From a virus, in the IMG/VR virus record IMGVR_UViG_3300024262_003092, positions 1 through 36,702 of that record: a stretch of DNA of 36,702 nucleotides. One strand, written 5' to 3'. How positions within the stretch are numbered: the first letter of the stretch is position 1; every line of letters starts with the position of its first letter. The position numbers and the translations under genes are program-made. Of the stretch, positions 5,447 through 32,731 are shown in pieces. Below the pieces are notes generated by a model. The model did no database searches, was not told the DNA's origin, and saw nothing but the letters and a program-made list of their open reading frames with translations.

Positions 5447-5764
5447 ATGAAAAAAAATATAAAAATAACTGAATCCGCTTTAAATAGAATCATTAAACGA
5501 GTTATTAAGGAACAATATTCGGACGAAGGTCAATTAGACGTAAACGAATTGGCTAAGAAGATAGTTTTATCTAAAAAGTATTCTGAAATAGTTGACGAAA
5601 TACTACCTAATGATTATAATAATGAGTTCGAATTTAGAGAAAACTTCATATCTAATTTGTTAGACGAATATTACGATGAGGAATATTATGATGATTTATA
5701 TAATGTGGTTGAAACGGAATATGGTAACATTATTTTAGATTTATACGGTAGTTCAGGAGAATAA
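5447..5764 (+). CDS. Acidic protein with canonical leader
   Basis: 105 aa. The N-terminal 23 residues are a clear leader: KITESALNRIIKRVIKEQ, an amphipathic basic helix ending I-K-E-Q. It resembles the leaders at 26142 and 32345 (RLTES/N-DL...RVISE). The remainder is strongly acidic and helical (VDEILPNDYNNEFEF, LDEYYDEEYYDDLYN) with no Cys and no membrane segment. An acidic body behind a basic removable leader is reminiscent of phage head-core or internal proteins; this is inference. A weak hairpin with a T run follows at about 5786-5812. Confidence 0.7.
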   Translation: MKKNIKITESALNRIIKRVIKEQYSDEGQLDVNELAKKIVLSKKYSEIVDEILPNDYNNEFEFRENFISNLLDEYYDEEYYDDLYNVVETEYGNIILDLYGSSGE

Positions 5765-15575: not shown

Positions 15576-16120
15576 ATTGGTTGATTCCAAATACCACATT
15601 TCTTTCCGTAGAATTCGAATACCAAATTCCAAAAAAGAAAATCTTTATGGTTAACACCTGGTATATGTTCTTTAGGCCATTTACAATCAACTAAACAAGA
15701 ATGGTGAGATATAACATTACCCGTATCAATTCTACCATAGACAGGTTTACTTGCAATAAGTCTTAACTTACCATCTTTATCAATCTGTTCACCAATTAAC
15801 ATACCTCTAAAATTATGTTCAACACATTCCAAATATTTCATATACATATTTTCATGAAAAATAGTATCGTCATCTAGAAAACAAAAATACCCGTCTTTTA
15901 TCTTACTTAATATGTTGTTTCTTTTTGAGGTTGTGTCACTATCCTCACAATCCACAGGATAAATTTTAATTTGACTATTATTTTTTAAAAATGGTAAATT
16001 AGGTAATTCTCTTTTAGTTGAATAAGATATATGCCAAATTATATCGTCATTTATGGGTATTGAATTATAAACTTGTTCTAATAAATTAAAACGATAAAGT
16101 GGTGTAACTATATGTAACAT
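15554..16120 (-). CDS. Family 2-like glycosyltransferase
   Basis: 188 aa, short for the family (usually 230 or more). HIVTPLYRFNLLEQVYNSI is a GT-A nucleotide-binding start, and FCFLDDDTIFHENMY carries the D-D-D metal/nucleotide-sugar site (near residue 92). The acceptor part has SHHSCLVDCKWP and a final YNQ/YYNRL. It would transfer a sugar from an NDP-sugar in the cytoplasm. Last gene of the four-gene minus operon; its ATG overlaps the aminotransferase stop by one base. The 3' end meets the broken leader gene. Confidence 0.75.
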   Translation of the reverse strand: MLHIVTPLYRFNLLEQVYNSIPINDDIIWHISYSTKRELPNLPFLKNNSQIKIYPVDCEDSDTTSKRNNILSKIKDGYFCFLDDDTIFHENMYMKYLECVEHNFRGMLIGEQIDKDGKLRLIASKPVYGRIDTGNVISHHSCLVDCKWPKEHIPGVNHKDFLFWNLVFEFYGKKCGIWNQPISYYNRL

Positions 16121-17226
16121 TATTTTATTAATTTTTTTATGTTGTCACATACATAGTTTATATCGTCATCAGATAAATTTTGATGTAAAGGTATGTTTAG
16201 ACCTGTTTTATTTAATTTTTCTGAATTATATAACTTAATATTTGTGTTATAAATTGGGTTTAAATGTAGTGGGTGATATCTCAAAGTCGTATATATACCA
16301 AGATCAAATAAATTTTTAGCAACCTCATTTCTTATATTATCGTCCATTTGTATAAAATAAGTGAAATATGAATGAGTCTCGTTTTTATTACAATCAACAG
16401 GTGTTATTAAATTCACATTTTTAAAACTTTCTTGATAATAATCCCATATTTCTTTTCTCCTGTTTTGATTTAAATGTAAGTTTTTTAGTTGAGTTAACGC
16501 TAATGACCCCTCAATATCGGAAGGTAGCATTTTAACATTTGGGTTAGTTATGTTATATTCCCACCAAATTTTATTTGGATATTTTTGTACATTATTAAAC
16601 CCTGAAAATCCAATACCACAATACCTCATTTGTAATGATTTTTCTGATAATTCTTTATTCTTAAAATATATCCCACCACCTTCACCAACGGCAATGTTTT
16701 TAACGGAATCAAAACTCCATATACCAACATCACCAAATGTTCCACAATATTTGTTATCTATTTTAGAATCAACGGCATGTGCGGTATCTTCTATGACGGG
16801 ATATCCTAATTGAATAATTGGGTTAATATCCACGGGTAAACCAGCATAATGAACAACCATTATTGCTGATGTGTTATTAGTTATTTTTTCTTTTATTAAA
16901 TTAATTGTTACGTTTTGTGTAAATAAATCAACATCGCAAAAAACAGGAATTAAATCATTTAATAAAATTGATTGTGCACAACTAACCCAAGTAAATGACG
17001 GTAGAATAACTTCAGAACCTTTAGGAAGATTTAAATTTTTTAACGCCAAATACAATGCGTTAGACCCGGAATCCACCATTAAAAAATTATCAACATTTAA
17101 TCTTTTTTTAAAATCATATTCAAAATTTTTAACGTTAGACCCAATTCCTGTCCAATTATTTTTTAAACAATCAACTACCCCTTCAATATCTTCTTGAGTA
17201 TATTTAGAACCAAAAACTGAAATCAT
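16120..17226 (-). CDS. DegT/DnrJ/EryC1/StrS-family sugar aminotransferase
   Basis: 368 aa, normal length. Shows the fold-type I PLP features: DSGSNALYLALKNL (phosphate loop), EDTAHAVDSK (PLP-contacting D), and SFDSVKNIAVGEGGGIYF with the Schiff-base Lys just before NIAVGEGG. The C-terminal signature YTTLRYHPLHLNPIY is also typical. The family transaminates keto-sugar nucleotides to amino sugars for surface glycans. It overlaps the acyltransferase gene upstream by 4 nt, so an amino group made here could be acylated by that enzyme. Confidence 0.92.
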   Translation of the reverse strand: MISVFGSKYTQEDIEGVVDCLKNNWTGIGSNVKNFEYDFKKRLNVDNFLMVDSGSNALYLALKNLNLPKGSEVILPSFTWVSCAQSILLNDLIPVFCDVDLFTQNVTINLIKEKITNNTSAIMVVHYAGLPVDINPIIQLGYPVIEDTAHAVDSKIDNKYCGTFGDVGIWSFDSVKNIAVGEGGGIYFKNKELSEKSLQMRYCGIGFSGFNNVQKYPNKIWWEYNITNPNVKMLPSDIEGSLALTQLKNLHLNQNRRKEIWDYYQESFKNVNLITPVDCNKNETHSYFTYFIQMDDNIRNEVAKNLFDLGIYTTLRYHPLHLNPIYNTNIKLYNSEKLNKTGLNIPLHQNLSDDDINYVCDNIKKLIK

Positions 17227-17870
17227 ATATTATTATTTTCTCTAATTATTTTACAAGGGTTTCCGTATACAACAACATTATCGGGAATGTCTTTAGTAAC
17301 TAATGAACCAGCACCGATTATGGTATTATCACCTATCTTAACACCATCAATTATATTCGCACCAATTCCTATTTGACAACCTTCACCAATTATAACATTG
17401 CCAGCAATATTAACACCAGGATTTATTGTTGTGTATTCACCAATTACGGTATGATGACCAATACTAACATTTCTATTAATAAATACAAAATCACCAATCT
17501 TTGTGTGACCAGCAATACTTACCAAAGTATTAATGACTATTCCGTTACCTAATTTAACTGTATTAGAGATATCAGAGTTATCCGATATTAGGTTAACCAA
17601 AAGAGTGTCTTTATTTACCTCAAATATATTACTAACTATTTTTCTTATTTTAGGTTTAACAACTCCCAAAGTTACCATTTTGTTACTGATATCCACATCA
17701 TTGGTGATTTCAATGTTAAACTTGGGGTGACAGTATTTTTTATTAGGTATTAGATTTAAATTATTAATTATATCAATATCTGGGTAGATTTCTTGAGAAT
17801 CTAAAATATCAAGTATCATTGTTAACGTACCCTCACTAAGTCCAAGTATTGTTAATTTTTCTATTTCCAT
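17223..17870 (-). CDS. NeuD/PglD-like sugar acyltransferase
   Basis: 215 aa. N-terminal Rossmann-like part (KLTILGLSEGTLTMILDIL), then a left-handed beta-helix of hexapeptide repeats from about residue 105: VIINTLVSIAGHTKIGDFVF, then NRNVSIGHHTVIGEYTTINP and IGIGANIIDGVKIGDNTIIG. H-x at SIGHH is the usual catalytic His region. NeuD/PglD enzymes N- or O-acetylate amino sugars such as sialic acid or bacillosamine precursors. The start overlaps the end of the BKACE gene by 35 nt. Confidence 0.9.
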   Translation of the reverse strand: MEIEKLTILGLSEGTLTMILDILDSQEIYPDIDIINNLNLIPNKKYCHPKFNIEITNDVDISNKMVTLGVVKPKIRKIVSNIFEVNKDTLLVNLISDNSDISNTVKLGNGIVINTLVSIAGHTKIGDFVFINRNVSIGHHTVIGEYTTINPGVNIAGNVIIGEGCQIGIGANIIDGVKIGDNTIIGAGSLVTKDIPDNVVVYGNPCKIIRENNNI

Positions 17871-18672
17871 AACCCAAGTTTTTAAAATCTAATGGTGATA
17901 AAACACCCAAACCCATTTCGTCCATTATCTTACGAATTCTTTGTAATAATTTAATATTAGTTGTTTTAACTTTATTTGTAAAGTATAAATTATCCTCCAA
18001 TCCAATTCTAATTCCGTCAGCGTATAATAAACCTAACAGATTAGATGGCAATTGTTCTTTACCTATACCACCCAAACATAATAAACTATTATTAGGTTTA
18101 TTCTGAATAATTGAATTGAGTGATGCAACATCTGATTGTGCGTTATACATATTACCCAAAATAACATTAATGTAGTGAGGATCCTTTAAGATACCTTTTT
18201 TAATCAAATAGTTAGTGTAGTTTAACATTCCAGAATCAAAACATTCGATCTCAGGAGTAACACCATATTGATCCATTTTTTCAATTAATTTTAAAATAGT
18301 ATCGGGAGAATTAATTGATTCACCAGTCGGGAAATTTAATGAGGACATGGTCAATGATCCCATATCGGGAAGTAATTCTAAGACCTCCGTCCTTCTATCA
18401 ATATTTGGTTCGAATCTACCTGTTAATGAAACACATATGGTTAAATTAGGACAATGTTTCCTAATACCTTCAATTATTGGTTTATAGTAATTTTTATCGC
18501 TACTATTCTTTAATGTCTCAGGGTTTCTAGAATGAATATGAGTAAGAGTTATGCCATACTCATATGCCTCATGAACCTCTTCAATTATTTCAGATGGTAA
18601 TAACGGAGCAAAAGAATTGTCTCTTGTTGTTTGTGTACCTGTTGGGGTAAAGTTAATTATTTTATTTGACAT
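17836..18672 (-). CDS. BKACE family beta-keto acid cleavage enzyme (DUF849)
   Basis: 278 aa. The family's zinc site is visible as THIHSRNP (H46 and H48), and the conserved late motifs are CLGGIG and GIRIGLEDNLYF. Further matches are NFTPTGTQTTRDN at the start and VTPEIECFDSGML in the middle. Known BKACE enzymes (e.g. 3-keto-5-aminohexanoate cleavage, Kce) condense a beta-keto acid with acetyl-CoA. Here it is the first gene of a glycan operon, so the substrate may be a keto intermediate for an unusual acyl group on a sugar. That coupling is inferred from context. Confidence 0.85.
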   Translation of the reverse strand: MSNKIINFTPTGTQTTRDNSFAPLLPSEIIEEVHEAYEYGITLTHIHSRNPETLKNSSDKNYYKPIIEGIRKHCPNLTICVSLTGRFEPNIDRRTEVLELLPDMGSLTMSSLNFPTGESINSPDTILKLIEKMDQYGVTPEIECFDSGMLNYTNYLIKKGILKDPHYINVILGNMYNAQSDVASLNSIIQNKPNNSLLCLGGIGKEQLPSNLLGLLYADGIRIGLEDNLYFTNKVKTTNIKLLQRIRKIMDEMGLGVLSPLDFKNLGYGNRKINNTWT

Positions 18673-24056: not shown

Positions 24057-25919
24057 TTAGTTAACTTCCTCAAATTCGACATCCGAAGAATCTATATCAA
24101 CTCCACCATCTTCGGATACATTTTCATACATCTTTTGACTGACCGATTGTAATTTGGTGTTCAGGTCGTCCATATACGTTTTAATATTCACCATCTCTTT
24201 TTTAGAGTGAAAATCTTTTAATTTTCCAATCAGACCATTTAATTCCTCTTTATCTTCTTCAGAAATCTTATCTCCCATATCTCCAATAGTTTTATTACTT
24301 TGGAAAATTAAGTTATCTGCCGAATTCAATGTCTCAATCTCTTCTTTCATCTTATTATCGGATTCGGAATTTTCTTCGGCCTCAGCTTTCATTCTTTCAA
24401 TCTCCTCTTTAGAAAGTCCTGATGAGGATTCGATACGAATTGATTGGGTTTTGTTAGTGCCTTTATCCACTGCCGATACGTTTATAATTCCGTTAGCGTC
24501 AATATTGAATATTACTTCGATTTGTGGAATACCCCTTTGAGATGGGGGTAAACCGTCTAAGTGGAAACGCCCAATCGTTTTGTTATCTTTCGACATCGTT
24601 CTTTCACCTTGTAGAATATGAATCTCTACACTCGGTTGATTATCAACGGCGGTTGAGAAAACCTGAGACTTTTTACTTGGTATTGTCGTATTAGAATCGA
24701 TTAACTTTGTAAATATCCCACCCATAGTTTCAATACCTAATGATAGTGGTGTTACGTCTAATAAGAGTACGTCATTAATATCCCCACTTAACACCCCACC
24801 TAATATAGCGGCACCTAAAGCAACTACTTCATCCGGATTAACACCCTTTGAAGGTTCCTTACCGAAGAAATCTTTAACTGCTTTTTGAATTGCTGGAATT
24901 CTTGTTGTACCACCAACTAAAATCACCTCATCAATTTCCCCAATTGTAAGGTTAGCCTTACTCATTGCGGTTTTACAAGGTTGTATTGTTCGTTTAATTA
25001 ATGAATCTGTTAATTGTTCGAATTTAGCCCTCGTTAACTTTGTGACTAAATGTTTAGGACCTGTTGAGTCAGCACTTAAGTAAGGTAGGTTAATATCAGT
25101 CTCAGAGGTCGATGAAAGTTCAATCTTAGCCCTTTCAGCGGAATCACGTAATCTTTGAATAACACCAGGATCGTTAGATAAATCAAACCCATTTTGGGAT
25201 TTGTATTCTGATTTTAAGAAGTCGACAATAACATTGTCAAAATCGTCACCACCTAAGTGACTATCACCGTCAGTCGATAGAACCTCAAAGACGCCATCAC
25301 CTAAATCTAGTATTGATACATCGTGAGTTCCACCACCACAGTCGAATACTGCGATAACCTTGTCACCACCTTTTTTATCCATCCCGTACGCTAATGCCGC
25401 TGCGGTTGGTTCGTTAACTATACGTCTAACGTTTAACCCTGCGATTTCACCAGCTTCTTTAGTTGCTTGTCTTTGAGAATCGTTGAAGTAGGCCGGAACT
25501 GTGATAACAGCTTCGGTAACACTTTCACCTAAGTATTCTTCAGCGGTTTTTTTCATTTTTTGAAGAATTATCGCTGAAATTTCCTGTGGGGAGTATTTTC
25601 TATCTGAAACATCCACCCTAGGTGAGTTATTATCCCCTTTAGAGATTTTATATGACATCTTACCAATTTCACTTTTTGATTCGTCGTAAGTCAAACCCAT
25701 AAATCTTTTAATTGAATAAATAGTTTTTTCCGGATTTGTAACAGACTGTCGTTTTGCCGGGTCACCAATTTTTCTTTCACCTTCGTTTTCAAGAAAGGCT
25801 ACTATCGATGGGGTGGTTCTTTTCCCCTCAGAGTTAGGTATTACGATAGGTTCTGAACCTTCCATAACTGACACACAAGAGTTAGTTGTCCCTAAATCAA
25901 TTCCAATAATTTTTCCCAT
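24057..25919 (-). CDS. dnaK: Hsp70 chaperone DnaK
   Basis: 620 aa, full length. Nucleotide-binding domain: [16 protein letters not shown] at the start, [50 protein letters not shown] and [11 protein letters not shown]. Linker and substrate-binding domain: [17 protein letters not shown], then [20 protein letters not shown]. The helical lid follows and the protein ends VEFEEVN, close to the usual EEV-D/K end. DnaK holds unfolded proteins in an ATP-driven cycle with DnaJ and GrpE, neither of which is encoded here, so host partners are expected. One difference is [12 protein letters not shown] instead of the usual VFDLGGGTFDVS. A chromosomal origin is possible but the neighbours are phage-like. 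Confidence 0.97.
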
Positions 25920-26141: not shown

Positions 26142-26648
26142 TTAACGATTTCTTGGGTTCATTGATACTCCATATATATCGTAAATCTTTTTCATTACCG
26201 ACAAAGATTTTTCTACTGAACCTGGAGTTGTTAAAAAACCTCCTCCATTTGTCGCCTCAATTGATGCGGAATAGTTTTTACCCCCATTTATTTCAATGTA
26301 TAATTTATTTCCTGTTCCTGTTATATCACACTTTACCCCATCAGCCTTTGGGAATGAATTTGGATTCAAAGGGTATAAATCCCAACTTAATGGGTTACCA
26401 ATTTTAACATGGGATCCGTATAAATCATTATATTCATTTAAATATTTCCCTAACATATTAGAGGTTAACTTAACACCATTCCCTGTTGAAGCCTTCCAAC
26501 CCATACCAAATGACGACATTTCAATAACCCCTTTTAAAAAGGTAAACAATCTTTTTTGTAATTCAAGTCCATCATTATTTTCTTCACTTATAACTCTTTT
26601 AACAATTCTAATTAAATCGTTTTCTGTTAATCTTACAATTTTTTTCAT
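26142..26648 (-). CDS. Cassette gene 1: leader-bearing protein
   Basis: 168 aa. Leader IVRLTENDLIRIVKRVISEE, almost the same as in cassette gene 3 at 32345 (RLTESDLVRLVNRVISEQ). The body is different: LQKRLFTFLKGVIEMSSFGM, then LSWDLYPLNPNSFPKADGVK, CDITGTGNKLYIEINGGKNY and SVEKSLSVMKKIYDIYGV. No domain recognised; moderately beta-rich. The ~30 bp before its ATG are identical to those before gene 3, and both end in the same nested hairpin. This argues for a cassette with exchanged body. Confidence 0.7.
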   Translation of the reverse strand: MKKIVRLTENDLIRIVKRVISEENNDGLELQKRLFTFLKGVIEMSSFGMGWKASTGNGVKLTSNMLGKYLNEYNDLYGSHVKIGNPLSWDLYPLNPNSFPKADGVKCDITGTGNKLYIEINGGKNYSASIEATNGGGFLTTPGSVEKSLSVMKKIYDIYGVSMNPRNR

Positions 26649-26662
26649 AATATATTTTTAAT

Positions 26663-26670
26663 TATAAATA
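26663..26670 (-). promoter_or_regulatory. TATTTATA promoter-like octamer (minus)
   Basis: Exact octamer 22 nt before the ATG of cassette gene 1, in the context GATGGATATTTATAATTAAA. Confidence 0.6.
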
Positions 26671-26720
26671 TCCATCAAAAACAAAAAAAATCGTTTTTTT
26701 TTTTTTGATGGATATTTATT
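26664..26720. repeat. Divergent cassette 5' flank
   Basis: Inverted arms around AAATCGTTTT carry ATAAATATCCATC on one side and GATGGATATTTAT on the other, so each diverging cassette gene has the same upstream sequence. A third copy precedes 32345. Confidence 0.75.
26713..26720 (+). promoter_or_regulatory. TATTTATT promoter-like octamer
   Basis: 26 nt before the ATG at 26739 and only 11 nt before the ATG at 26724; the spacing favours 26739 as start. Confidence 0.5.
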
Positions 26721-26738
26721 TGTATGGATAAGATATTA

Positions 26739-27914
26739 ATGAAAGAAGAATTAAATAGAATTAAAGAATTGATGGGTTTGATAAATGAGCAAAACAAATT
26801 TTATCTGGACCAAAAACAATTACAACTACCTTCAGATTACTTAGGTAAAGGTGGTGGTTTTGAGAGAGGTTTATATGGTGGAATGTCCTCTGAAAACTAT
26901 TATAAGTTATTGTCTGAAATACCAACAAGTGAAATTGAAAAAATAAGATTAATTTTCCCACAAGCAAAATGGGAAGAGTTTGCGTTAAAATTATTAAAAA
27001 CTTTAAAGGTGGTAACTGGTGTTTTTAATAATTTAAAAGATGCGATAAATTTTGTTGATAATTTAAAAGAAAAAAATGTTAAAGTCGATGAATTTGTTGT
27101 CGGTTCACATGGAAGTGTGGGAACTTTATTAACGACGCAAAATGGTAGTAGTTATTCTTTTAATACAAATTTTTTAAATAACTTTAAAGATATTCTCCAT
27201 CCAAATAGTAAAGTTTTTTTTACTGCGTGTAAGGGTGCTGATTATTTAGATACTTTAAAAGACGCTGCGGAAAAACTTAATATTGGTGTTTATGGTTCTG
27301 CAGGTATATACAATTATATAACTAATAATTCAGAAAAAGGATTTTATTGGTGTTCACCTCAAAAATTTGAGACCCCAAAAACAAAAGAAAAAATAAACCC
27401 AATAAGTTATAATGAAAAATATGGTTTAATTTATGTAAAATCACTATCGTCTAAGTCTATCTATGACCAAAGCCGTAAAACTAAAATAACAATTAATCGT
27501 GGCGTTTTTGACAATTCAGTTCATAAATTTGAATCTGAATTTGATAGTGGAGGGCAAACTGAGTATTTTCAACCATCCCAAATGAGAAACCAATTATTTT
27601 TAGAAACCGGTAGATTAGATATTAATTTCTGTATTAAATCTTATTTTGTTGATAATTACGGACATTCAAAAGAAAATAAATATAATCCATATGATAAAAA
27701 AAGGAAAGAATTAGAAAATGTTGGATTCATCGATAAATATGTAATAGACAAAATAAAATCAAATGAAATTATTGTTGAAGTTGATGTGGATGGTAAACTT
27801 ACTAATATTAAATCTTTACCATTAATACAAAAACCTATGAATATTACCAATGAATATTTATTGGATAATAATTTATGTAAAAAAGTTTCAAAATCACCAA
27901 TATCATGGATTTAA
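26739..27914 (+). CDS. Cassette gene 2: leader plus caspase-like (His/Cys dyad) peptidase candidate
   Basis: 391 aa from ATG 26739; ATG 26724 would add five residues. Leader KEELNRIKELMGLINEQ ends I-N-E-Q. After a ~90-aa linker, DEFVVGSHGSVGTLL and SKVFFTACKGADYLDTL give H and C at about residues 124 and 164, followed by NIGVYGSAGIYNYI. A strand ending in G-S-H-G and a later strand ending in T-A-C is the layout of clan CD peptidases (caspase, C80 and CHAT-like, DUF4347-like) as I know it. The last ~180 residues are unrecognised. The gene shares its flanks with cassette genes 1 and 3. A packaged protease acting on entry is an attractive but unproven reading. Confidence 0.6.
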   Translation: MKEELNRIKELMGLINEQNKFYLDQKQLQLPSDYLGKGGGFERGLYGGMSSENYYKLLSEIPTSEIEKIRLIFPQAKWEEFALKLLKTLKVVTGVFNNLKDAINFVDNLKEKNVKVDEFVVGSHGSVGTLLTTQNGSSYSFNTNFLNNFKDILHPNSKVFFTACKGADYLDTLKDAAEKLNIGVYGSAGIYNYITNNSEKGFYWCSPQKFETPKTKEKINPISYNEKYGLIYVKSLSSKSIYDQSRKTKITINRGVFDNSVHKFESEFDSGGQTEYFQPSQMRNQLFLETGRLDINFCIKSYFVDNYGHSKENKYNPYDKKRKELENVGFIDKYVIDKIKSNEIIVEVDVDGKLTNIKSLPLIQKPMNITNEYLLDNNLCKKVSKSPISWI

Positions 27915-30582: not shown

Positions 30583-30609
30583 ACTACCCAACCACTAAAG
30601 ATGGTTGGG
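30580..30609 (-). repeat. IS605 right-end hairpin, copy 6
   Basis: Perfect 8-bp stem CCCAACCA / TGGTTGGG with loop CTAAAGA. Contains the tnpB stop codon, so the tnpB 3' end, the expected guide-RNA (omega/reRNA) scaffold and the IS end coincide here. Confidence 0.85.
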
Positions 30610-31780
30610 CTTCAGGAATCACAGACTCACCTAATGGCAACGCCTCCTCCTGTTTTTGTTTAATGTCCGATTCTATTCCATAACCAGACAATATGTTTAT
30701 TCCTTGTTTCAGGATGTTTTTACTTGCGTTTAAATCTCTATCGTGATGTTCATTACAAGAAGGACAAGTCCATTCTCTAATAGAAAGATTTAAATCTTGG
30801 TTTATCCACCCACAATTAGAACAAGTTTTACTAGATGGAAAAAATCTATCAATTTTAACGAATGATTTATCATTCCATCTTGATTTATACTCTAACATTG
30901 TGTAGAACATACCTAAACTAACATCAGATAATGATTGAGCCAATTTATGATTTTTCATCATATTCTTAACTGACAAATCTTCTACAGATATAATGTCGTG
31001 GTTTTTGACAATTTCTGTTGATACTTTATGTAAGTAATCTTTTCTGACATTTGTTATTTTTTCGTGAACTAAAGATAATTTAATTTTTTGTTTTTGTCTA
31101 CTATTACTATCTTTTTGTTTTTTAGATAGTTGTCTTTGTTCGTATTTTAGTTTTTTTAATTTAGATTTTAAAACTTTAATATTTTCATAAGTTTTTCCAT
31201 CTGAAAGTATCGCCAAATCTTTTATACCAGTATCAATACCAATACTTGAACCTGTTTTATCAAATGGTTTATGATTAACTTCACAAGTTATGCTAACATA
31301 ATATTTTCCTGTTGTTGATTTGGTTATTGTTGCAAATAATATTTCACCTTCTAATTCTCTATGTAATTTTATTTTAATCCCTTCTTTAAATTTAGGAATG
31401 ATTAACCGTTCATTATTAATTAAAACATTTTGTGGTATTTTGAAACTTTGCCTGTCATATTTTGATTTGAATCTTGGAAACTGATTTTGTTTATTAAAAA
31501 AGTTTTTATATGCCGAATCAAGATTTCTAATTGATGATTGTAATGATTGTGAATTAATTTCTTTTAACCAATCAAATCCTTCTTCTTTTTTTAAATCGGT
31601 TAGTGTTCTTGCGTTATCATAATAATTTAATGAAGTTTTTTCGTTTAAATATTTTTCTTTTCTTTCGTGAAGAAACCTATTAAACACAAATCTACAAGCG
31701 CCAAAATGTTTGGATAATAACTCCATTTGTTCTGATGTAGGTTCTATTCTAAACTTATATGATTTGTGAATAATCTTCAT
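30584..31780 (-). CDS. tnpB: TnpB, RNA-guided nuclease of IS605
   Basis: 398 aa, usual length. N-terminal KSYKFRIEPTSEQMELLSKH and FPRFKSKYDRQSFKIPQN (OrfB_IS605 domain), RuvC-I SIGIDTGIKDLAILSDGK (D183), RuvC-II ISVEDLSVKNM (E267), zinc ribbon C320-x-x-C323 ... C339-x-x-C342 in TCSNCGWINQDL and TCPSCNEHHDRDLNASKNI, with RuvC-III D347/D349. All catalytic residues are present, so it should be active. TnpB uses an RNA from the element's right end to cut the donor site, which keeps the IS from being lost. The C-terminus (SVIPEAQPSLVVG) is encoded by the right-end hairpin. Confidence 0.96.
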   Translation of the reverse strand: MKIIHKSYKFRIEPTSEQMELLSKHFGACRFVFNRFLHERKEKYLNEKTSLNYYDNARTLTDLKKEEGFDWLKEINSQSLQSSIRNLDSAYKNFFNKQNQFPRFKSKYDRQSFKIPQNVLINNERLIIPKFKEGIKIKLHRELEGEILFATITKSTTGKYYVSITCEVNHKPFDKTGSSIGIDTGIKDLAILSDGKTYENIKVLKSKLKKLKYEQRQLSKKQKDSNSRQKQKIKLSLVHEKITNVRKDYLHKVSTEIVKNHDIISVEDLSVKNMMKNHKLAQSLSDVSLGMFYTMLEYKSRWNDKSFVKIDRFFPSSKTCSNCGWINQDLNLSIREWTCPSCNEHHDRDLNASKNILKQGINILSGYGIESDIKQKQEEALPLGESVIPEAQPSLVVG

Positions 31781-31870
31781 ATATTATAAATATCTTGATT
31801 TCCTACAAAAGACAGAATTTTTGTAAAATGTTTGTATTCTGTGAAAACATATTTACAAAAATTCTTTATT

Positions 31871-32281
31871 ATGTCAAAAAAATCAAATTACATTACAACA
31901 AATCGTTCAAAACACTATCTGAAAATTCATTTAATATTTGTTTGTAAATATCGTAAACCTTTACTTATGGGTAATTTAAATGAAGATGTGAAAACTATAT
32001 TGGAAAATATTACAAATAATTCAGATTTTAGTATTGAGGTTATGGAATCAGATATTAATCACATTCATTTTTTAATTAGATATATTCCTCGTTTATCTGT
32101 TTCGTCAATTGTTCGTAAATTAAAACAAGAATCAACAAAACAAATTTGGTCTTTGTATTCTGATGTTTTAAGTCAAGAATTTTGGTTAGAAAAAACTTTT
32201 TGGTCTGATGGTTACTTTGCTTGTTCAATTGGTGAAGCATCACCAGATACAATCAGAGAATATATTTTAAATCAAGGTTAA
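31871..32281 (+). CDS. tnpA: TnpA, Y1 HUH transposase of IS605
   Basis: 136 aa from the ATG at 31871 (a start at 31832 would add 13 residues). The HUH motif is INHIHFLIR with H64 and H66, and the catalytic Tyr is Y131 in TIREYILNQG. Length and order fit IS200/IS605 TnpA, which cuts and rejoins single-stranded ends at hairpins. Given nine related hairpins in the window, this enzyme may also act on some of them in trans. Confidence 0.95.
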   Translation: MSKKSNYITTNRSKHYLKIHLIFVCKYRKPLLMGNLNEDVKTILENITNNSDFSIEVMESDINHIHFLIRYIPRLSVSSIVRKLKQESTKQIWSLYSDVLSQEFWLEKTFWSDGYFACSIGEASPDTIREYILNQG

Positions 32282-32344: not shown

Positions 32345-32731
32345 ATGAAAAAAATTGTAAGACTAACCGAATCTGATTTAGTAAGATTGGTTAATAGAGT
32401 TATAAGTGAACAATATGATGAAACTTTGAAAAAAGAACTCCAAAATATTGGTGGAAATTATCAACCCATTAAACTTTTTTCTGATAAAACCGAAAAAAAT
32501 TTGGTGGGTGTAACTTTTTTTGATGAGGTTTTTAAAAATGAGGATGGTTCAATTCATTTATATCCTGGTGAGATAAAATTTAGCCCAACATTAGGAAGTA
32601 AAAGTGGTTATAAAGTGCTTTTATTTAAATGTGGGACACAGGGATTATTAAGTAATGGTAATGGTAAAATATTATATAATAGCGAATTAGAAAATTACTT
32701 AAAAAGTAAAACTTGTGGTAAAAAAATCTAA
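32345..32731 (+). CDS. Cassette gene 3: leader-bearing protein
   Basis: 128 aa. Leader RLTESDLVRLVNRVISEQ ends I-S-E-Q. The body (NIGGNYQPIKLFSDKTEKNL, VGVTFFDEVFKNEDGSIHLY, KFSPTLGSKSGYKVLLFKCG) is beta-rich and unrelated to cassette gene 1 despite the shared leader and flanks. Function unknown. It sits between the IS605 left end and nested hairpin C. Confidence 0.7.
   Translation: MKKIVRLTESDLVRLVNRVISEQYDETLKKELQNIGGNYQPIKLFSDKTEKNLVGVTFFDEVFKNEDGSIHLYPGEIKFSPTLGSKSGYKVLLFKCGTQGLLSNGNGKILYNSELENYLKSKTCGKKI

Follow-up and report, generated by a model that had tools for sequence, protein, structure and literature searches.

A predicted clan-CD-like peptidase with a capsid-type leader in an uncultured T4-like bacteriophage

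T4-like phages load helper proteins into their heads, and the well studied cargo is a short list consisting of Alt and the internal proteins (IPs). Leaders of 10 - 20 residues target the IPs and Alt of T4 into the core, the protease gp21 cleaves behind sequences such as ITE and LTE (Alt), and IPI is an injected anti-restriction protein (PMC9026906). The T4 major capsid protein, gp23, loses a propeptide of 65 residues (PMC5694885). The polyvalent proteins of phages and conjugative elements resemble the protein described here in having enzyme domains, often peptidases, that are predicted to enter with the DNA, but they are large and multidomain, and clan CD is not among the four peptidase superfamilies listed for them (zincin, assemblin-like, DD and LonC; PMC5512222). 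Tce1 is a putative cysteine protease effector of the Pseudomonas aeruginosa H3-T6SS, the His186/Cys240 dyad of which was aligned with the protease domain of TcdB (PMC13323088).

The DNA analyzed here (the window) is a complete IMG/VR entry of 36,702 bases. Its source phage is uncultured and T4-like, and the record is most likely a fragment of the phage genome. The window has no head genes, but its placement in a phage group is supported by Hsp70, FKBP and other stretches that it has in common with loci of that group. The Hsp70/DnaK gene (24057-25919) is full-length and has about 70% DNA identity in several related phage loci. A ClpP-like protein of the window was considered as a prohead protease, since it matches 'head maturation protease' PHROGs, but it is an ordinary ClpP by Pfam and was rejected. 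The window also contains an IS200/IS605-type pair (30584-32281), in which a TnpB-like protein (OrfB_IS605) and a Y1 transposase lie on opposite strands, and a cassette of adjoining DegT aminotransferase, hexapeptide transferase and BKACE genes (16120-18672, minus strand) that possibly serves sugar or surface modification.

The peptidase-like gene is an open reading frame on the plus strand at 26724-27914, coding for 396 amino acids plus a stop. A preliminary description had the frame right but placed the start at 26739, which is the codon of the internal Met6 and an alternative start. The leader is followed by a linker, residues 23-68 (26790-26927), that has low model confidence (pLDDT is below 50 for residues 1-58 in the first of two models). 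Residues 69-215 (26928-27368) form the main part of the caspase-like domain in the AlphaFold2 model. Approximately residues 216-370 (27369-27833) are an insert, as judged from the alignment, and residues 371-396 (27834-27911) are the C-terminal part of the domain according to both alignment and model.

The preliminary description had drawn attention to a GSHG motif followed, about 40 residues on, by TAC, each at the end of a predicted strand. Both motifs are present. GSHG comprises residues 127-130 (27102-27113), with H129 at 27108-27110, and TAC comprises residues 167-169 (27222-27230), with C169 at 27228-27230, exactly 40 residues after H129. In the second model, residues 128 and 166 are the last of their strands, so that each strand stops at a motif or just short of it. 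Conservation of the two residues, on which the proposal depended, is complete: His and Cys are invariant in 14 distinct proteins, as are the first and last Gly of GSHG and the Thr of TAC, the Ala being replaced in one homologue. The alignment consists of 15 viral reading frames, 14 of them distinct because L112 and L115 are identical, and the 14-row version gives the same invariant columns. There are only 12 such columns (G127, H129, G130, L151, V164, F166, T167, C169, G171, A172, L175 and C210), most of them falling in G-x-HG and V-x-FT-x-C-x-GA. The pair of motifs is thus more than a chance occurrence, since H129 and C169 are among so few invariant positions. C210 (27351-27353) is a further invariant cysteine, and C385 (27876-27878) is kept in nearly all members; each is within or beside a strand of the model. 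The short members of the family have a domain of about 198-216 residues, from which residues 216-370 are largely missing; approximately residues 69-215 and the C-terminal tail therefore make up the minimal domain. The dN/dS ratio among the three closest homologues is about 0.15-0.22, as calculated from their sequences, which indicates that they are under purifying selection.

Single-sequence searches with the peptidase in viral, genome, phage and plasmid collections gave no homologue. The family was reached by using P0001, the product of a leader-bearing neighbour gene (32345-32731, plus strand), as the query, and then profiles and one motif pattern. The P0001 search returned 78 viral loci, two of which have relatives of the peptidase. 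The 14 distinct members are found on records of 7 kb to 430 kb. The 13 besides the window protein are all viral, have identities down to about 22%, and all keep H129 and C169. No member was confirmed in the bacterial genomes searched, so the family is likely to be restricted to viruses at the sensitivity of that search. Three different queries found no member in isolated phages. A second reading frame in L091 (10740-12428), once grouped with the family, was missed by the family profile and has been excluded. Directly upstream of the caspase-like gene, L091 (7819-9321, the same as L084, 7963-9465) has a leader-bearing protein with a HEIQH zincin-type motif, possibly a second injected peptidase.

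The leader with I-N-E-Q that was described earlier as capsid-type is also present. It comprises residues 1-22 (26724-26789, plus strand), with LINE at residues 19-22, and reads ...MGLINEQ at its end, INEQ being residues 20-23 (26781-26792). The predicted position of cutting by an S77 protease, placed by analogy, is between E22 (26787-26789) and Q23 (26790-26792). The assignment as a capsid leader is supported by S77 and gp23 in related records, the shared LINE end, the modular use of leaders and a shared upstream box. Of 18 related records, 14 encode S77, the gp21-type prohead protease, among them three further records above 80 kb that have the peptidase gene, and gp23 was found in 14 of 17; the S77 match in the 430 kb record that carries the peptidase gene is weak, and the records lacking S77 or gp23 are among the shorter ones, the window fragment included. 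The first 60 residues of gp23 in the related records, apparently its propeptide, end in LINE before Ala or Ser in all 12 cases, whereas the residue after the predicted cut in the leaders is mostly Gln.

Leaders like this one are also found on many unrelated proteins, few of which are peptidases. A leader-like N-terminus was counted in 148 of 2547 reading frames compared to 9 of 3402 internal-Met controls, and the peptidase's own class, around RIK-x-x-MG, in 11 of 2363 N-termini compared to none of 4640 controls; the patterns were composed after the sequences had been viewed, and these counts are therefore an illustration and not a blind test. The last Glu of the main leader class is residue 22 in 101 of 129 cases, matching the peptidase leader. 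Within the window, leader-bearing genes include the divergent neighbour of the peptidase gene (26142-26648, minus strand; 168 amino acids), which has the main-class leader MKKIVRLTENDLIRIVKRVISEE, and a gene for 105 amino acids at 5447-5764 (plus strand) that fits the leader pattern. In L004, L005, L014, L073 and many other loci, swappable leaders (MKKIVRLTESDLxRIVKRVIxEQ and variants) are attached to dozens of proteins that have no relation to each other, at a density of several per 12 kb. Judging from these sequences, the leader set probably lists the proteins that uncultured T4-like phages load into their heads. The family member in L114 has no obvious N-terminal leader. A full-text literature search for the leader sequence found no matching paper.

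The resemblance to T4 IPI-III and Alt consists in an N-terminal leader that is short and ends in [LI]-x-E, a gp21-type protease in related phages, and predicted packaging and injection. The leader sequences differ, however, no clan CD protein is among the cargo of T4, and packaging in the present phages is a prediction. On the sequence evidence, there is a good probability that the peptidase is packaged in the head.

A promoter-like box, GGATATTTAT, is found at 26710-26719 (plus strand), with TATTTAT 11 nucleotides ahead of the ATG. The same box precedes the divergent neighbour (26673-26664, minus strand) and P0001 (32320-32329, plus strand). The intergenic region between the two divergent leader genes, 26650-26723, is short and contains an inverted pair of boxes (ATAAATATCCATCA...TGATGGATATTTAT). 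Scored as TATTTAT within 60 nucleotides upstream of the start, the box is present ahead of 129 of 161 leader genes, compared to 33% of other reading frames of at least 100 amino acids and 9% of shuffled upstream regions. It precedes S77 in 11 of 11 cases, the scaffold gene in 7 of 7 and the portal gene in 2 of 2, and was found upstream of neither DNA polymerase (0 of 7) nor UvsX (0 of 5). The low counts for gp23 (1 of 9; the gene follows the scaffold gene) and terminase (1 of 7) are what would be expected of genes within operons. Four of the 14 family starts have the box. The phages compared are related, so that none of these counts are independent. Read on the opposite strand, TATTTATA gives the textbook T4 late box TATAAATA; use of the same sigma factor is not claimed. 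These T4-like phages may use the TATTTAT box as a late promoter. A different conserved element, AAGGTAAA...CCGACCTTAATTTCGGAAGC...ACACC, lies immediately 5' of the DNA polymerase start in L156-L162, and is possibly a hairpin serving as a translational operator.

These observations suggest the following role for the protein. The gene would be transcribed late, together with the head genes, and the leader would dock the peptidase in the scaffold core of the prohead. The gp21-type (S77) protease would then cut after LINE, at E22, releasing residues 23-396 within the head. The peptidase would enter the host with the phage DNA by injection, and, as infection begins, its H129/C169 dyad would cleave a single host protein or a small number of them. 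Of these steps, late expression, entry into the head, cutting of the leader, injection and the host target are modelled on T4, and proteolysis is likewise a prediction; the fold, the conservation of the dyad, the modular leader, the presence of S77 and gp23 in relatives, the shared LINE and the shared box were computed. An injected head cargo peptidase acting on a host protein is the reading toward which the evidence inclines us, by a little.

The same packaged enzyme might instead trim the phage's scaffold or co-packaged proteins, either during head maturation or after ejection. The leader and the promoter-like box do group the peptidase with head genes, and the gene is near virion genes in some loci: it is about 3.4 kb from gp23 in L110, and in L112/L115 it is directly 3' of large genes that resemble virion genes when judged by eye. 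However, these phages already have S77, and the peptidase gene was found in only 6 of the 50 records searched, 4 of the 6 being listed because they carry it. It is thus an accessory gene, and as most related records lack it, head maturation does not depend on it. Across the family loci, conserved neighbour genes are limited to two small groups of three. According to a survey of jumbo phages, patchily distributed peptidases are those expected to aim at the host (PMC7824862), and this argument, together with the patchy distribution found here, favours a host target over head maturation. A phage substrate is therefore rather unlikely.

It is less likely still that the peptidase is made in the infected cell and remains unpackaged, with the leader being another kind of sorting signal or a propeptide that controls activity. 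Peptidases are commonly kept inactive by an N-terminal propeptide, but an inhibitory propeptide would not explain why very similar leaders occur on many unrelated proteins, most of which are not peptidases.

The fold was predicted with AlphaFold2, first from 5 sequences (pLDDT 70) and then from 14 sequences for residues 69-396 (pLDDT 83.7, pTM 0.74). The second model has H129-G130 after the strand 121-128 and C169 after the parallel strand 158-166, with one helix between them. In a VIA-align comparison its top match is Tce1 (9qpe_G, Z 13.2, 153 residues aligned, rmsd 3.4), followed by SAVED-CHAT (8.6), a Bacteroides C11 peptidase (8.2 and 7.1), Raptor (6.7), and legumain, OaAEP1 and many caspases at Z 5.4-6.4; scores under 8 may be generic, but Tce1 is clear of the other matches, and the alignment extends over most of its domain. 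With the first model, the Z scores were 12.5 for Tce1, 7.4 for caspase-3 and 6.7 for a C80 domain. Thus the fold is predicted to be of the caspase type in both models, with clan-CD-like top matches, as the preliminary description had anticipated. Foldseek alone found no match below E 1e-3, its best PDB match being a C11 peptidase with a probability of 0.98. The generic Rossmann fold suggested by the first model and Foldseek alone was overturned by the VIA-align ranking and the deeper alignment. Among viral models, Foldseek places a protein of Myoviridae sp. ctWaE18, itself uncharacterised, second (probability 1.00) and an ascovirus caspase fifth, for which reason further phage proteins with a caspase-like fold may exist.

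Sequence comparison is less informative. Pfam searches matched neither the window protein, at E up to 1, nor its core, at E up to 10, to any family, and five family members searched at E up to 10 matched no clan CD family (such as C14 caspase, C11, C80 or CHAT). No PHROG profile matches the window protein. A phmmer search of PDB sequences aligned coral caspase-3 at a sub-threshold E of 0.02-0.05, with SHG paired with THG and TACKG with QACQG; the top match, interaptin, was rejected, as neither motif aligns with a catalytic site. By its modelled structure the peptidase represents an unnamed clan-CD-like family, and a clan-CD-like fold with a dyad of the catalytic type is very probable.

Such a fold might serve something other than proteolysis, such as the binding of a partner or another Cys reaction, for example peptide ligation. 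The structural matches include Raptor, which has no known protease activity, and the peptide ligase OaAEP1, and C210 and C385 are conserved as well. The His and Cys with their flanking residues are, however, the most conserved part of the family, which makes a non-protease improbable, slightly more so than an unpackaged enzyme. A superficial likeness to clan CD in a protein of another α/β (Rossmann-like) fold might be suggested by the lack of Pfam, PHROG or significant PDB sequence matches and by the many Rossmann-type folds found by Foldseek at similar E-values. It is very improbable, because the top matches of both models are clan-CD-like, Tce1 scores well above the generic matches, and H and C are invariant.

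Tce1 (PDB 9qpe) is the best structural match of both models, has a His/Cys dyad, and is delivered by a machine resembling a phage tail. The identity is nevertheless only about 11% over the aligned part. Tce1 is loaded in the Hcp ring, whereas the phage peptidase is predicted to be in the head behind a cleaved leader, and the protease activity of Tce1 is itself still putative. The predicted fold and the predicted positions of His and Cys are also those of caspases, legumain, clostripain-like C11, C80 and CHAT. Unlike these, the phage peptidase has no family profile match, and has a large insert between the last strands and a capsid leader.

The preliminary description had proposed counter-defence. 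Cleavage of a bacterial immune protein by a capsid-loaded peptidase, before phage genes are expressed, is a speculative form of counter-defence by proteolysis and rather doubtful; the role in the host might be any of several, with counter-defence among them. PADLOC, the library of which contains defence and not anti-defence proteins, gave no match for the window protein. Both clan CD peptidases and T4-type capsid-targeted cargo are known kinds. Caspases are not mentioned in two surveys of jumbo phages (one of them PMC7824862) or in the survey of polyvalent proteins (PMC5512222). The novelty is in the combination and in the peptidase family itself, both of which appear to be undescribed in the literature searched.

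The leaders and their common box allow the probable head cargo of uncultured phages to be read from the sequence as a large catalogue, one item of which has a predicted caspase fold. Bacterial immunity employs clan CD proteases, such as CHAT in Craspase. If the phage injects a clan CD protease, it would be a direct counterpart of these bacterial immune proteases.
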